Source: Planctomycetota bacterium
GTDB lineage: Bacteria > Planctomycetota > Planctomycetia > Isosphaerales > Isosphaeraceae
Assembly: GCA_021807585.1 (NCBI GenBank)
Contig: JAKBCQ010000024.1
Span: forward strand, 1-11,508
Reading direction: 5' to 3'
Length of the DNA: 11,508 bases
The notes under the pieces are model-generated. The model was not told the DNA's origin and made no database searches. It saw only the letters and a list, made by a program, of their open reading frames with translations. Shown one piece after another: positions 4,128 to 8,648 of the stretch. The first letter of the stretch is position 1; the number at the start of each line of letters is the position of its first letter. The position numbers and the translations under genes were made by a program.

Positions 4128-4622
4128 TTAAACCTGCAAGCGTCGGAACAGTCGCGGCCGCGCCAGCCATTCGAGTTGGAAGCCCCCTTCGGGGTGCGTG
4201 CGGAACGCCACGACGCCTCCTTTACGGAGGCTGAAGATCGGCCTGCTGTGATCTCCCGTGACGAGCAGCCCCGTCAGGTGCGAGACCGCGGGGTCGTGGC
4301 CGACGATCAACAAACGCTCTTCCGATCGCGTGTGGATCCAATCGCGAATCGTCGCGGCGTCCGATGACGGACGTAATACGTCGTCGAATTCGACGTTTTC
4401 TTCGAGACCGAGTTCGCGAGCCAGGATTTCGGCGGTTTCGCGCGTTCTGGGGAGGGGGCTCGCGATGATTTTATCGAGATCGAGTTCGAGCTTCAAAAGC
4501 CCTCGAGCGATCGTTCGCAAGCGTTTTTTCCCTTTGGGAATCAACACCCGTGCGTCGTCTTCGATTCCCGGAGTTTCGCGGGGTTGCGCGATCGCGTGCC
4601 GCATGATAATCAGGCGTTCCAT
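4128..4622 (-). CDS. sixA: SixA-type phosphohistidine phosphatase
   Basis: 164 residues from ATG 4622, close to the 161 of E. coli SixA. The start is chosen because AAGGAA sits just upstream and the protein then begins MERLIIMRHAIAQ, the canonical N-terminus. The open frame extends upstream to 4718, but that stretch overlaps the arginine dihydrolase gene. Histidine-phosphatase-superfamily residues are visible: R8-H9 (the phospho-acceptor histidine), R59 in ASPLPRTRETAEIL (54-67), and H109 in LLIVGHDP (104-111). Like SixA it is a minimal domain with no large cap insertion. SixA removes phosphate from histidine; in E. coli its substrate is the NPr protein of the nitrogen-related phosphotransferase system. 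The gene starts 19 bases after the arginine dihydrolase stop, so co-transcription is likely. Physiological substrate here: unknown. Confidence 0.88.
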   Translation of the reverse strand: MERLIIMRHAIAQPRETPGIEDDARVLIPKGKKRLRTIARGLLKLELDLDKIIASPLPRTRETAEILARELGLEENVEFDDVLRPSSDAATIRDWIHTRSEERLLIVGHDPAVSHLTGLLVTGDHSRPIFSLRKGGVVAFRTHPEGGFQLEWLARPRLFRRLQV

Positions 4623-4641: not shown

Positions 4642-5538
4642 TCAACTCTCTGGAGGGGAATGTAGGTCGTTTTTCCGGGGATCGGCGGGGCGCGGCGGAA
4701 GTCGACGAATCGCCTCACGCTTCCAGCTCGCGGCGTCTTCGCCGTCGATGCGGAACGTCAGGCATTTGGCGCTCCCTCCCGCCTTGATGAACTCCGAAAG
4801 CGGGGTCGCCCTCACCGTGTAGCCGTTCGCTTCGAGGTCGCGTTTGAGCCGCGGCGAGACGTCGTTGAGGATCACCGTCCGTCCCACGACGACCGCGTTG
4901 CAACTAAAAGAGACCGCCTCGTCGGCGTGCACCTCGATCAGCCGATCAACCCGCGCCGCGAGAACCGAACGTCCGTAATCGTCGAACGCTCCAGGATAAT
5001 AAATCGCCTGTTCGCTCGACAGGGGGCAGAAGCACGTATCCAGGTGGTAATAGCGGGGATCGACGAGTTCGAGCGGCAAGGTCTCGACGCCGAGCCGCTC
5101 GCCGATCCATTGCTGAGAGAGCGCGTCGCTCCGAAACCGATACCCCGCGAAGAGCGTCTCGCCGCAAAAAAGCGCGTCGCCGGCGCCCTCGAAAAACATC
5201 CCCTCGGGAAGCGATTCCACCCGAAACCCCGCGTCGACGAACCGGCGATCAAACAGCGGCGTCTCTCCCCGCCGTACCTCGAAACGAAATCGTGAGCTTA
5301 AAAACAAGTTATGATAAACAATCCCCGCATTCGCGGTGAAGACCAGATCGGGCAGCCCCCGCGCGGGTTCAAGCCGTTCGATCGTCGCTCCCAGATTCTC
5401 AAGGATCGCTACGAGCGCGCGCCATTGGAAAAGCGAACGCGCCGGATCGGCGTCGACCCGCGTGTTCATCCACGGGTTGATCTCGTACTCGATCCCGTAG
5501 AAATCGGGCGAACACATCAAGATGCGAGGGTTTTTCAT
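4642..5538 (-). CDS. Arginine dihydrolase (ArgZ/AgrE N-terminal type, guanidine-modifying superfamily)
   Basis: 298 residues from ATG 5538; a GTG immediately upstream (5541) is the alternative, and GAGG/AAGG lie just before. Guanidine-modifying (amidinotransferase/dimethylargininase fold) features, numbered from the ATG: PDLVFTANAG with D64 and N70; FFEGAGD with E117 and D121; YYHLDTCFCPL with H165 and D167; and nucleophile C259 in GGSAKCLTFR. The spacing and wording follow the N-terminal half of cyanobacterial ArgZ/AgrE, which turns arginine into ornithine, two NH3 and CO2. An Asn in the FTANAG motif has been reported as decisive for dihydrolase over deiminase chemistry, and it is present here. 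The neighbouring ornithine cyclodeaminase supports this over dimethylargininase or plain deiminase. It should be cytosolic. The end of the protein (RRLPPRPADPRKNDLHSPPES) is a charged, proline-rich tail with no cyclodeaminase domain. Confidence 0.87.
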   Translation of the reverse strand: MKNPRILMCSPDFYGIEYEINPWMNTRVDADPARSLFQWRALVAILENLGATIERLEPARGLPDLVFTANAGIVYHNLFLSSRFRFEVRRGETPLFDRRFVDAGFRVESLPEGMFFEGAGDALFCGETLFAGYRFRSDALSQQWIGERLGVETLPLELVDPRYYHLDTCFCPLSSEQAIYYPGAFDDYGRSVLAARVDRLIEVHADEAVSFSCNAVVVGRTVILNDVSPRLKRDLEANGYTVRATPLSEFIKAGGSAKCLTFRIDGEDAASWKREAIRRLPPRPADPRKNDLHSPPES

Positions 5539-5566
5539 CACGGCCTTGAGCCTCGTCGGCGAAGAG

Positions 5567-5581
5567 TTAAAGCGCCTTTAA
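5567..5581. promoter_or_regulatory. 15-base perfect inverted repeat upstream of the arginine dihydrolase gene
   Basis: TTAAAG-CGC-CTTTAA has two perfect six-base arms with a three-base centre. It lies in the 64-base gap between the cyclodeaminase stop and the dihydrolase start, about 28 bases before the ATG at 5538. It could be a binding site for a dimeric regulator or a small RNA hairpin affecting downstream expression. The sequence alone does not decide. Confidence 0.35.
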
Positions 5582-5602
5582 TCAATTATGTGAATGATCC
5601 GA

Positions 5603-6880
5603 TTATGTTTTGATATCTCCGACGAGTTCGGCGGCGAGGCCGCGGAGGAACGGCTCGGCGTCGGTGACGAGCCCGACGGTCTGAAACGAGCCTCGATCGA
5701 GCAGCTTGGTGACGGTCGCGGGGTTGATGTCGACGCAAACCACTTTCACCCGCGCGGGAAGCAGGTTCCCCGCGGCGATCGAATGGAGCGCCGTCGCGAC
5801 CATGATCGCCAGCCCGACGTCCTTGATCGCGGATCGCATCAGCGATTGCGCGCGGAGGGTGTCGACGATCACTTCGGGGAGCGGGCCGTCGTCGCGAATC
5901 GAACCCGCCAAGATGAACTCGACGTCGGCTTTGATACATTCATACATAATTCCTGATGTAAGAACCCCCTTGTCGACCGCGGCGCGAATCCCCCCCAGCC
6001 TGCGGATCGTGTTGATCGCGCGCAGGTGGTGTTGATGCCCGTGTTCGATCGCCTCTCCTTTACTAATCGACACCCCCAGGCTTGTTCCCATTAAAGCTTG
6101 TTCAATATCGTGTGTCGCGAGCGCGTTTCCGGCGAATAATTTTTGGATGAAGCCGTTGCGGACGAGCGCCGCGACGTGTCCCGCCGAGCCCGTGTGGATG
6201 ATCGCGGGGCCTCCCACGAGGAGCACTTTTTTCCCCGCGGCGCGGGTCGAGCGGATCGAATCGGCGACGGCGCGAACGCTGACCGCTTTGGGTTTCTCGC
6301 TTGAAACCGCCGAACCCATGAACCCGAAGACGTCGCCGTCGCGCGACCGTTCGGTCGGGATCACGCGAACCCCCGCGTGGCCGACGACGATCGGTAGGCC
6401 GAGGGGGACGTCGGCCATTGCGACGCACCGCGCCCTCCTGCCCGACCGATCGATCGCGATCCCGCAATCCATCTCCTGGTCGTCGACGTCGATCCACCGA
6501 CCCGCGATGCGGACCTGGGTTTGCTGATTCGTCGTGCTGTAAAACTGATCGGGAAACGCGCCGGCGATATCGGCGGCGACGGTCTTGGCGTCTTCAACGT
6601 CGACTTGGGTCGCTCCGTGTTCGACGAGATCGCCGAGGATCGCGGCGAGGAGATCGGCGTCGCGTGCGCGGATCGCAATCCGCGCGTGGCTTGGGTCGAC
6701 GCGCCGCGCGCCGATCTCGCACTTCCTGATCTCGAACGAACCCCCCATCTGGAGAATCCGATCGAGGATCTTGGGCAGAATCAGTGAATCGACGATGTGC
6801 CCGTGGACCTCGATCTCCTCGACGAACTCTTGGGAATCGGCTCGCTCGTCGGTTTCGGCGACATCCTCTTGCGGAGTCAT
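5603..6880 (-). CDS. Ornithine cyclodeaminase, TIGR00300 / LOR-SDH-domain type
   Basis: 425 residues from ATG 6880, preceded by GGAGG with a seven-base spacer. It matches the archaeal-type ornithine cyclodeaminase / 'LOR/SDH bifunctional enzyme conserved domain' family (TIGR00300, usually about 400 residues), also the C-terminal half of cyanobacterial ArgZ/AgrE. Visible signatures: GHIVDSLILPKILD and MGGSFEI (27-51), YSTTNQQTQVRI (114-125), the nucleotide-binding stretch VLLVGGPAIIHTGSAG (219-234), GNALATHDIE (251-260), AGSIRDDGPLPEV (325-337) and VDINPATVTKLLDRGS (383-398). Residues 1-22 are an acidic extension. The reaction is ornithine to proline plus NH3, using bound NAD+. It is unrelated to the mu-crystallin-type ornithine cyclodeaminases. 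It is the first gene of the minus-strand cluster and lies 64 bases before arginine dihydrolase, whose product is its expected substrate. Confidence 0.85.
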   Translation of the reverse strand: MTPQEDVAETDERADSQEFVEEIEVHGHIVDSLILPKILDRILQMGGSFEIRKCEIGARRVDPSHARIAIRARDADLLAAILGDLVEHGATQVDVEDAKTVAADIAGAFPDQFYSTTNQQTQVRIAGRWIDVDDQEMDCGIAIDRSGRRARCVAMADVPLGLPIVVGHAGVRVIPTERSRDGDVFGFMGSAVSSEKPKAVSVRAVADSIRSTRAAGKKVLLVGGPAIIHTGSAGHVAALVRNGFIQKLFAGNALATHDIEQALMGTSLGVSISKGEAIEHGHQHHLRAINTIRRLGGIRAAVDKGVLTSGIMYECIKADVEFILAGSIRDDGPLPEVIVDTLRAQSLMRSAIKDVGLAIMVATALHSIAAGNLLPARVKVVCVDINPATVTKLLDRGSFQTVGLVTDAEPFLRGLAAELVGDIKT

Positions 6881-7220
6881 CGACGCTCCTCCATCGAAAG
6901 AATCCGGTCTTATCGACGCGGCTCGATTCTACCCGAAAGCGTCGGGGCGTGTCGCGATCGACGGGTATGATCCAATAATCAAAAACATGATATTTTTTTA
7001 AAACAAGTGTAAATTGAATCCGCTCAAGTCGTCGACGGATCGGCGCCGCGACCGCGGCTCGTTTTCCATTTTCGGCTTGCGAGAATCGTCGCGGCTTTGT
7101 TGGAATATGTGGATCTTGAATGACCTTCGCGGTACGATATTCCTCGGAGGCGAAATCGCTCCCGGGATGTCGCTCCTCTTTGATCGAACGAACACCTGGG
7201 ACGTACTCGAGGATACACCC
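6881..7220. other. Divergent intergenic region between the arginine operon and the MPGEP-protein gene
   Basis: 340 bases without a convincing gene, expected to hold promoters for both directions. At 6970-7013 there is an AT-rich patch with a T-run (around 6990-7000), unusual for this DNA. Leftward, TAGAAT (minus strand, 6931-6926) is a fair -10 box without a clear -35. Rightward, TTGAAT (7116-7121) and TATTCC (7139-7144) are 17 bases apart, a weak promoter match. GCCGCG-AC-CGCGGC (7045-7058) is a perfect inverted repeat that could form a short hairpin. Open frames cross this region on both strands but have no recognisable protein content. Confidence 0.5.
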
Positions 7221-8648
7221 ATGTCGGCCACGACGTTGATGATCGCTCTCGCGTCGATACTTCAATCGCCCACGATGCCGTCGGCGCAGTGGAAGCCGTT
7301 CAAGCCGCCGCGAGGGAATTTCCGGATCATCATGCCCGGCGAGCCCGTCGAATCGTTGAAGTCGATCGACACCGACGACGGTCCGGTCGATCAACGCGTT
7401 TTCACGACGATTCAGGGGGGAACGCGGTATACGATCAGCTATTACGACCGTCCCGTCACCGCTCCCGCGAAGCCGCCCGCCGAGGTTTTGGAGGCGGTCG
7501 AAAAACGCGTCGTCGGCAACCTGCAAGGCAAGCTCATCACCCAAAACGAAGTCGACGTGTCGGGGCATCCCGGTAAGGATCTCGTCGTCGAGACGCCGAC
7601 CGCGAACCGCCGCGCCGTGGTGATCGTGAAAACGCGAGTTTATGTCGTCGATCGAAGGATCTTTCAAGTGATGACATCGGCCTATAAAACGCCGACGAAC
7701 AAAAACGCGACCAACGACCCGATTTATTTTAAATCGTTCAAGCTGACCGAACCCGGCGACGTTCCCTCGGCCGAGGCGAAGCCCGCGAAGACCGAATCTT
7801 CGACCGAGAAGGAGGAGAAGAAGCCGACTTCGACTTCAAGATCCAAAGCTGCGACGGCGACGGCGAAGTCGAAACCGGCCTCGAAGGGGAGTCGGGGGAG
7901 CGCCAAGATCGCGTCGACCGCGAAAAGCAAAGGGAAAACCGCGGCGACGAAGGGGGATCAAAAATCGGCTGGAATGATGAGCGGACTGTTCGCGGTGATG
8001 CGCGGCGATTCGCGGGGCGAAACGAAAAAGCCCGCGGTTCCCAATCCGACCCCGCTGGGGGGCCTGGCCGCGCTATTATCGGGGGGCAAGCCCGCGGCCG
8101 CCGCGACGCCTACGATCGTCGATCCCGCCGATCCCCAGGCGCCTCCGGGCTTCAAGCCGTTTCACGACGTCGAGCGAGAGTTCACTGTCTTGATGCCGGG
8201 CGAACCGAAGCGGCAATCCGTCGATGTTCCGCTTCCGTCGGCCATTGGGCGAATCGACACGAAGCCGCGTTCCATGAAGACGACAATCGTCAGCGGAACC
8301 GTGAACAATATCGAGTATATCGTAACGTGTTTGAACAATCCGTCGCGTGTGCCCGACGGCGCCGCCGACGCGTTTTTTATCGGCCTTGAGAGCTCATTTT
8401 TCCTGAAGGCGCCAGGCAAATTCGTGAAAAAAGAGGCGATCATTTTTCGCGGGCGAGCGGCGCGGAATTATTGGGCCGAGTGGACCGACGCATCGGGAGC
8501 CGTCGTCAAGCACGGAAGGTTGCGGGTGATCCTCACCGCCGATCGCAGTTACATCGTCTCCGTTGCGACCCGCGATCTTAAAATATCGCTTGACGATCAA
8601 ATGTTCTTCCTCGATTCGTTCAGGCTCGACGCGGCGGGGGCGAAATGA
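7221..8648 (+). CDS. Exported-looking protein with two 'MPGEP' domains and a basic H1-like linker
   Basis: 475 residues from ATG 7221, chosen because GAGGAT sits about eight bases upstream and a hydrophobic stretch (MSATTLMIALASILQ) follows. The frame is open back to 7014, but that part has no protein character. Residues about 30-175 and 311-469 are two related domains. Each begins near F-x-[IV]-x-MPGEP (34-42 and 321-329), has a run of beta-strand-like segments, and ends in F-[KD]-S-F-[KR]-L (170-175 and near 463-468). Between them, residues 176-305 are low complexity. At about 187-250 they are dominated by Lys, Ala, Ser and Thr, resembling a histone-H1 tail. Similar F-x-V-x-MPG-x-P domains occur in many planctomycete hypothetical proteins; function unknown. 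The signal sequence lacks a clear basic n-region, so export is likely but not certain. The gene precedes the glycosyltransferase by 34 bases, suggesting an operon. Confidence 0.75.
   Translation: MSATTLMIALASILQSPTMPSAQWKPFKPPRGNFRIIMPGEPVESLKSIDTDDGPVDQRVFTTIQGGTRYTISYYDRPVTAPAKPPAEVLEAVEKRVVGNLQGKLITQNEVDVSGHPGKDLVVETPTANRRAVVIVKTRVYVVDRRIFQVMTSAYKTPTNKNATNDPIYFKSFKLTEPGDVPSAEAKPAKTESSTEKEEKKPTSTSRSKAATATAKSKPASKGSRGSAKIASTAKSKGKTAATKGDQKSAGMMSGLFAVMRGDSRGETKKPAVPNPTPLGGLAALLSGGKPAAAATPTIVDPADPQAPPGFKPFHDVEREFTVLMPGEPKRQSVDVPLPSAIGRIDTKPRSMKTTIVSGTVNNIEYIVTCLNNPSRVPDGAADAFFIGLESSFFLKAPGKFVKKEAIIFRGRAARNYWAEWTDASGAVVKHGRLRVILTADRSYIVSVATRDLKISLDDQMFFLDSFRLDAAGAK

Follow-up and report, generated by a model that had tools for sequence, protein, structure and literature searches.

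ArgZ of Synechocystis (Sll1336) and AgrE of Anabaena (Alr4995), described by the NCBIfam model NF052231, carry an arginine dihydrolase unit followed by an ornithine cyclodeaminase unit on one polypeptide. The window (the whole 11,508-nucleotide stretch of DNA analysed here, which is one entire contig of a 69% complete, 884-contig assembly, assigned to the Isosphaeraceae, Planctomycetota, by how its close relatives are named) appears to carry the same two catalytic units as neighbouring genes in the opposite order. Do these genes provide the arginine-to-proline route as two separate enzymes, is their association more than chance, and how does it relate to the fusion? Our analysis confirms a conserved two-gene form, with the order reversed, of what reads as a known pathway; the enzymes likely have the predicted functions, and the pair has probably had a separate evolutionary history.

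The gene pair in the window

Both open reading frames (ORFs) are intact and lie on the minus strand. The first (OCD; 5603-6880, minus strand, 425 amino acids from an ATG start) encodes a predicted stand-alone TIGR00300 ornithine cyclodeaminase, and the second (DIH; 4642-5538, minus strand, 298 amino acids from an ATG start) a predicted ArgZ-type arginine dihydrolase, a guanidine-modifying enzyme. An alternative DIH start, a GTG at 5541, is found one codon upstream of the ATG. The original prediction had placed a 298-residue enzyme with FTANAG, YYHLDTCF and AKCL motifs 64 bases 3' of a TIGR00300 protein, and both the ORFs and the motifs were confirmed. The 64-base gap between the genes (5539-5602, minus strand) contains a small inverted repeat, which we rejected as a conserved element as it is absent from the same-genus genome; no Rfam matches were found in the window. 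A third gene, 19 bases 3' of DIH (4128-4622, minus strand, 164 residues), encodes a SixA-type phosphohistidine phosphatase. Divergent from the OCD gene is a 544-residue ORF (7014-8648, plus strand) that matched nothing in Pfam or NCBIfam; the same-genus genome has a copy of 78% identity.

Conservation and adjacency of OCD and DIH

We surveyed a set of 40 genomes (the window's own plus 39 relatives). Full-length OCD and DIH were present in the same 31 genomes and absent from the same nine (Fisher test, 3.7e-9, uncorrected for kinship), with partial OCD matches only in two further genomes (E 8e-5 and 8e-4). Within the window's family, 21 of the 25 sampled genomes had both genes, so that much of one bacterial family would gain a defined route for arginine nitrogen. 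OCD adjoins DIH in 22 of the 31 pair-bearers (19 of the 21 within the family and three of the other 10; 30 OCD loci were scanned, and G034, where the genes are >2 Mb apart, was scored from coordinates), and the pair is accordingly not confined to one genome. The co-occurrence extends to the nine pair-bearers in which the genes are not adjacent but lie on different contigs (including the fragmented G003) or at a distance, ~5 kb in G029, 94 kb in G026 and more elsewhere. Wherever the genes adjoin, in the 22 genomes and in two additional loci of other planctomycete genomes (L063 and L064), the order is OCD then DIH on one strand (24/24), and the gap is 4 to 202 bases when start codons are picked by script.

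Comparison with a same-genus genome gave a dN/dS of 0.12 for OCD and 0.12 for DIH, i.e. purifying selection. Whilst the gene order of the whole window is preserved in that genome (L070), a tblastn search with ten window genes found only OCD, DIH and SixA in three loci of the family (L075, L076 and L078) and nothing beyond OCD and DIH in a fourth (L077); as few other window genes are kept in these loci, the OCD-DIH pair outlasts the background gene order. Purifying selection, identical presence and absence, and conserved adjacency confirm that the pair is maintained beyond chance.

In a broader draw of 246 Planctomycetota genomes, all 13 with a strong DIH match (E<1e-55) also hold OCD. The other 17 of the 30 DIH matches are weaker homologues (E 1e-41 to 1e-46) from genomes without OCD, which suggests that the wider DIH family has other uses. 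Conversely, 39 of the 52 OCD-bearing genomes have no DIH match at E<=1e-40, which is how we define a stand-alone OCD; the genomes are 84-95% complete, and some DIH genes have perhaps been missed.

Identity of DIH

The top NCBIfam matches of DIH were the ArgZ models, at 288-290 bits, followed at a distance by the dimethylargininase model NF045659. Each score was below its curated cut-off: 288 bits for arginine dihydrolase NF052232 (cut-off 450), 238 for dimethylarginine dimethylaminohydrolase NF045659 (cut-off 300), and 290 and 426 bits for the window's two separate proteins against NF052231 (cut-off 1025), whose architecture of both units on one polypeptide, DIH first, is replaced here by two ORFs with OCD first. 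Three planctomycete fusions also scored below the cut-offs, at 323-346 bits against NF052232 and at 924.5, 965.3 and 991.6 bits against NF052231; that true planctomycete fusions are missed suggests, as far as these three go, that the models are narrowly fitted. The arcA model TIGR01078 had no match to the window protein at E 0.001.

The catalytic set is as in ArgZ. Asn70 (codon 5329-5331), His165 (codon 5044-5046) and Cys259 (codon 4762-4764, all minus strand) align with positions that we take to be Asn71 and His168 in native ArgZ numbering, and with Cys264; C264 stands in the title of structure 6lrh. The Asn and Cys of DIH also align with the positions mutated to Ser in ArgZ crystal forms (FTASAG, AKSLT).

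Could DIH instead be a dimethylarginine hydrolase or a deiminase, with the OCD neighbourhood incidental? Many of its relatives are publicly named 'N-dimethylarginine dimethylaminohydrolase' (many OCD relatives are named LOR/SDH-like, and one DIH relative, P0013, is named arginine dihydrolase), Pfam gives DDAH_eukar alone for DIH, and the NF052232 score is under its cut-off. We nevertheless judge this reading very unlikely, since the dihydrolase models beat the dimethylargininase model by 50 bits on the window protein, the FTANAG and AKCL motifs match ArgZ, DIH and OCD co-occur fully over the 40 genomes, and among solved structures ArgZ and AgrE are the closest in sequence (E 1e-72 to 8e-69), the best DDAH being much more distant (5e-8). 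For the paired DIH of L063, the dimethylargininase and dihydrolase models scored 253 and 252 bits, respectively.

The wider family also includes the mycobacterial Rv2323c, a guanidine-modifying enzyme that likewise stands alone and on which the NF045659 'dimethylargininase' model was presumably built. Rv2323c is annotated as a dimethylarginine hydrolase, and PMC4569260 describes a knockout that stops the flow from arginine to proline, and a gene that adjoins roc genes and not a TIGR00300 gene. The need for Rv2323c in this flow in vivo makes the naming boundary between dimethylarginine hydrolases and dihydrolases doubtful.

Identity of OCD and its cofactor

OCD scored 530 bits against TIGR00300 (curated cut-off 410.8) and shows the same three Pfam domains as the ArgZ/AgrE C-terminal half (LOR/SDH and ArgZ-like C-terminal). 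Two stand-alone TIGR00300 proteins with structures, from Methanococcus maripaludis (3c2q) and the N-domain of MJ1480 (3mgj), are archaeal, unlike the window OCD. For three stand-alone OCDs from one planctomycete family (L178, L194 and L196), alignment to the query OCDs starts only after query residue 56-100, leaving the N-terminal part unaligned.

Either NAD or a nickel-pincer nucleotide is a candidate cofactor. The AgrE structure 6lrg was solved with NAD+, according to its title, and its fold is near that of deoxyhypusine synthase; neither LarA nor another nickel-pincer enzyme was among the 50 structure matches listed. The current NCBI name of TIGR00300, on the other hand, is 'ornithine cyclodeaminase, nickel-pincer nucleotide-dependent', and our search of the open-licence literature found nothing tying TIGR00300, the pincer cofactor and ornithine together. 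We surveyed nickel-pincer genes through larC and larE. In the phylum draw, larC was present in 51/52 OCD-bearing and 130/194 other genomes (kinship ignored), an excess that fits a nickel-pincer cofactor. In the 40-genome set, larC was present in 30/31 genomes with OCD and 8/9 without, and larE in 29/31 and 9/9, respectively; as both are near-universal there, this set is uninformative on the cofactor and only the phylum draw informs. The two pair-bearers in which larE was not found over the cut-off, G003 (85% complete) and G017 (99% complete), do not fit a nickel-pincer cofactor. The window's own assembly (69% complete) has larE, and larC was not found in it. Two naturally unfused enzymes would offer material both for this cofactor question and for that of channelling by fusion.

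The predicted route and its genomic setting

On the strength of the catalytic residues, the co-occurrence and the adjacency, we consider it likely that the pair provides arginine-to-proline catabolism as two separate enzymes, DIH then OCD, as originally predicted. OCD, DIH and often SixA would be expressed from one transcript. DIH would convert arginine to ornithine, CO2 and two NH3, removing both guanidine nitrogens, and OCD would cyclise ornithine to proline, giving off a third ammonia, so that arginine nitrogen could be freed without arginase, urease or deiminase. Proline dehydrogenase, encoded elsewhere in the genome, would start proline on its way toward glutamate. The precedent is AgrE, which converts arginine to proline via ornithine and in doing so releases one CO2 and three ammonium, PutA then converting proline to glutamate (PMC8262935). 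In the open-licence literature, we found no assay of any enzyme from the paired clade and no paper titled on a planctomycete OCD-DIH pair, which has possibly been described elsewhere.

Proline dehydrogenase (PF01619) was present in 28/31 pair-bearers, the window's own genome included, compared to 5/9 genomes without the pair; most of these frames are ~1000 residues, PutA-like by length only. This frequency fits catabolism and argues against the pair serving mainly to supply proline from arginine rather than to release nitrogen. Such a role would sit well with the 39 OCD-bearing Planctomycetota without DIH, which indicate that OCD has a life outside arginine breakdown; we nonetheless regard it as improbable.

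We also surveyed other arginine-breakdown genes, namely urease, arcA and arginase. The suggestion that the organism releases arginine nitrogen without urease or classic deiminase genes was upheld for the window's genus as assembled, in that urease alpha over the cut-off was absent from its two genomes (69% and 92% complete). It did not extend to pair-bearers at large, 11/31 of which have a urease alpha over the cut-off. None of the 40 genomes had arcA over the cut-off, with arcA-like frames below it in four, three of them pair-bearers, and 6/31 pair-bearers had an arginase-family protein; most genomes of the window's family show neither an arginase-family nor a classic deiminase gene.

Fused forms in other bacteria

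Scanning named genomes with the DIH alignment gave at least 576 confirmed relatives. Of the best 80, 74 are DIH-OCD fusions in frame and one (L144) is a fusion with a frame shift; the remaining five loci have no OCD within reach, and one of these sits at a contig end. By record titles and NCBI ranks, the fusions among the best 80 come from Cyanobacteria, Planctomycetota (Phycisphaerae, Blastopirellula), Verrucomicrobiota, Pseudomonadota, Myxococcota and Nitrospinota, many of the records being metagenome-assembled genomes in which misbinning is possible; the names of relatives add Acidobacteria and Fuerstiella. Two planctomycetes of the draw also carry a fusion (L061, 2909-5026, minus strand; L062, 2990-5071, plus strand), and an adjoining open frame in both reads like the DNA mismatch repair protein MutS. 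Further fusions outside cyanobacteria were found in L079-L082, L085, L086 and L088. The view of the ArgZ/AgrE fusion as the cyanobacterial form, on which the original prediction relied, is therefore corrected by records of five other phyla. This spread agrees with a network analysis of the broader family (PMC11659421), in which the bifunctional enzymes reportedly share a cluster with a larger set of uncharacterised proteins.

Some candidates were set aside. The verrucomicrobial locus L144 might be read as a separate DIH-then-OCD pair, but its overlapping ORFs represent a frame-shifted fused gene and it was not counted as a pair. Long frames upstream of the stand-alone OCDs of G159, G268 and G265 were not accepted as fusions, the upstream stretches being unlike protein by eye. 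Four DIHs from the fused side have no OCD in the locus (L083, L084, L129 and L143; Deltaproteobacteria, Pseudoxanthomonas, Rhodanobacteraceae and Woeseiaceae by title), and in L143 the DIH gene follows a PF19420 gene (335 bits).

Origin of the pairing

We compared the histories of the two proteins in trees built largely from metagenome-assembled genomes, with some deep forks weak. These sampled 25 of the 39 stand-alone OCDs and 14 of the 17 weak DIH homologues, and took 26 of the best 80 loci into the DIH tree and 21 into the OCD tree. With 11 weaker homologues as its root, the DIH tree, whose rows do not include the NF045659 enzymes or Rv2323c, shows the planctomycete DIHs, paired or unlinked (31 rows, 100/97), as sister to the fused side (28 rows, 98/90), which takes in four stand-alone DIHs. 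In a first version of this tree, the outgroup rows L184-L186 branched, with a length of 3.45, from the base of the paired group, whose support was then 90/73; they were dropped from the second. The OCD tree, of 81 rows, places the paired OCDs together with seven stand-alone planctomycete OCDs (100/99), whilst the fused clade (100/100) groups with 12 other OCDs (100/98).

A single clade of all DIH-associated OCDs was rejected by the AU test (p 5.2e-5, 55 rows vs 25; 0.0075 without L063), in a comparison that used a quick tree, a set chosen after the OCD tree was known, and an alignment from which the long OCD row L195 was dropped. With L195 kept, as in the OCD tree, parsimony gives three changes of state, compared to one gain plus at least six losses (roots on end branches only); the three changes are three gains if the stand-alone OCD is ancestral.

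Compared to ArgZ/AgrE, then, the planctomycete pair consists of two polypeptides in the reversed order, with an OCD that sits on a different branch of its tree. A simple split of the fusion, which the original prediction had doubted from gene order, is ruled out by that order and by both trees. The prediction had left the choice between a pre-fusion arrangement and an independent pairing. In the former, the adjacent pair would be ancestral, the fusion would have formed once by reordering, and the stand-alone OCDs would have lost DIH later. The sister relationship of the paired and fused DIHs, against the outgroup used, makes one ancestral DIH plausible, and the evidence against such a relic comes from the OCD half: stand-alone OCDs separate the paired from the fused OCDs at the AU values above, one gain with at least six losses competes with three changes, and all 24 pairs run in the opposite order to the fusion. 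We consider the relic unlikely. Because the paired and fused OCDs are not one clade, we favour an independent pairing over either a split fusion or a direct precursor: the planctomycete pair probably arose separately from the fusion of cyanobacteria and other phyla, and the OCD-DIH(-SixA) arrangement would have formed in Planctomycetota when DIH was brought next to a local stand-alone OCD lineage.

SixA as a third gene

The SixA gene (4128-4622) scored 74.7 bits against TIGR00249, just above the cut-off of 74.5, and two relatives scored 81.0 and 81.6. Of the 20 testable genomes of the window's family, 13 have SixA 3' of DIH in the same orientation (the window, L032, L033, L034, L038-L043, L045, L046 and L049), the 21st genome being outside the count as its locus ends at a contig edge. 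The spacing between DIH and SixA is 2 to 74 bases in 12 genomes and 303 in one. Outside the family, SixA was found 3' of DIH in none of nine loci.

That SixA controls the route, through a link of the kind reported for E. coli in PMC7948535, is a guess from gene order. A wider reading would have DIH joining OCD at least twice, as the multi-phylum fusion and as a planctomycete operon, with the operon dependent on a nickel-pincer cofactor and its output tied to histidine-phosphate signalling via SixA. We consider this combination tentative and rather doubtful, the more so as a pair-bearer that is 99% complete gave no larE over the cut-off. In one of the 13 family genomes (G020), SixA lies 3' of DIH even though DIH and OCD are unlinked.
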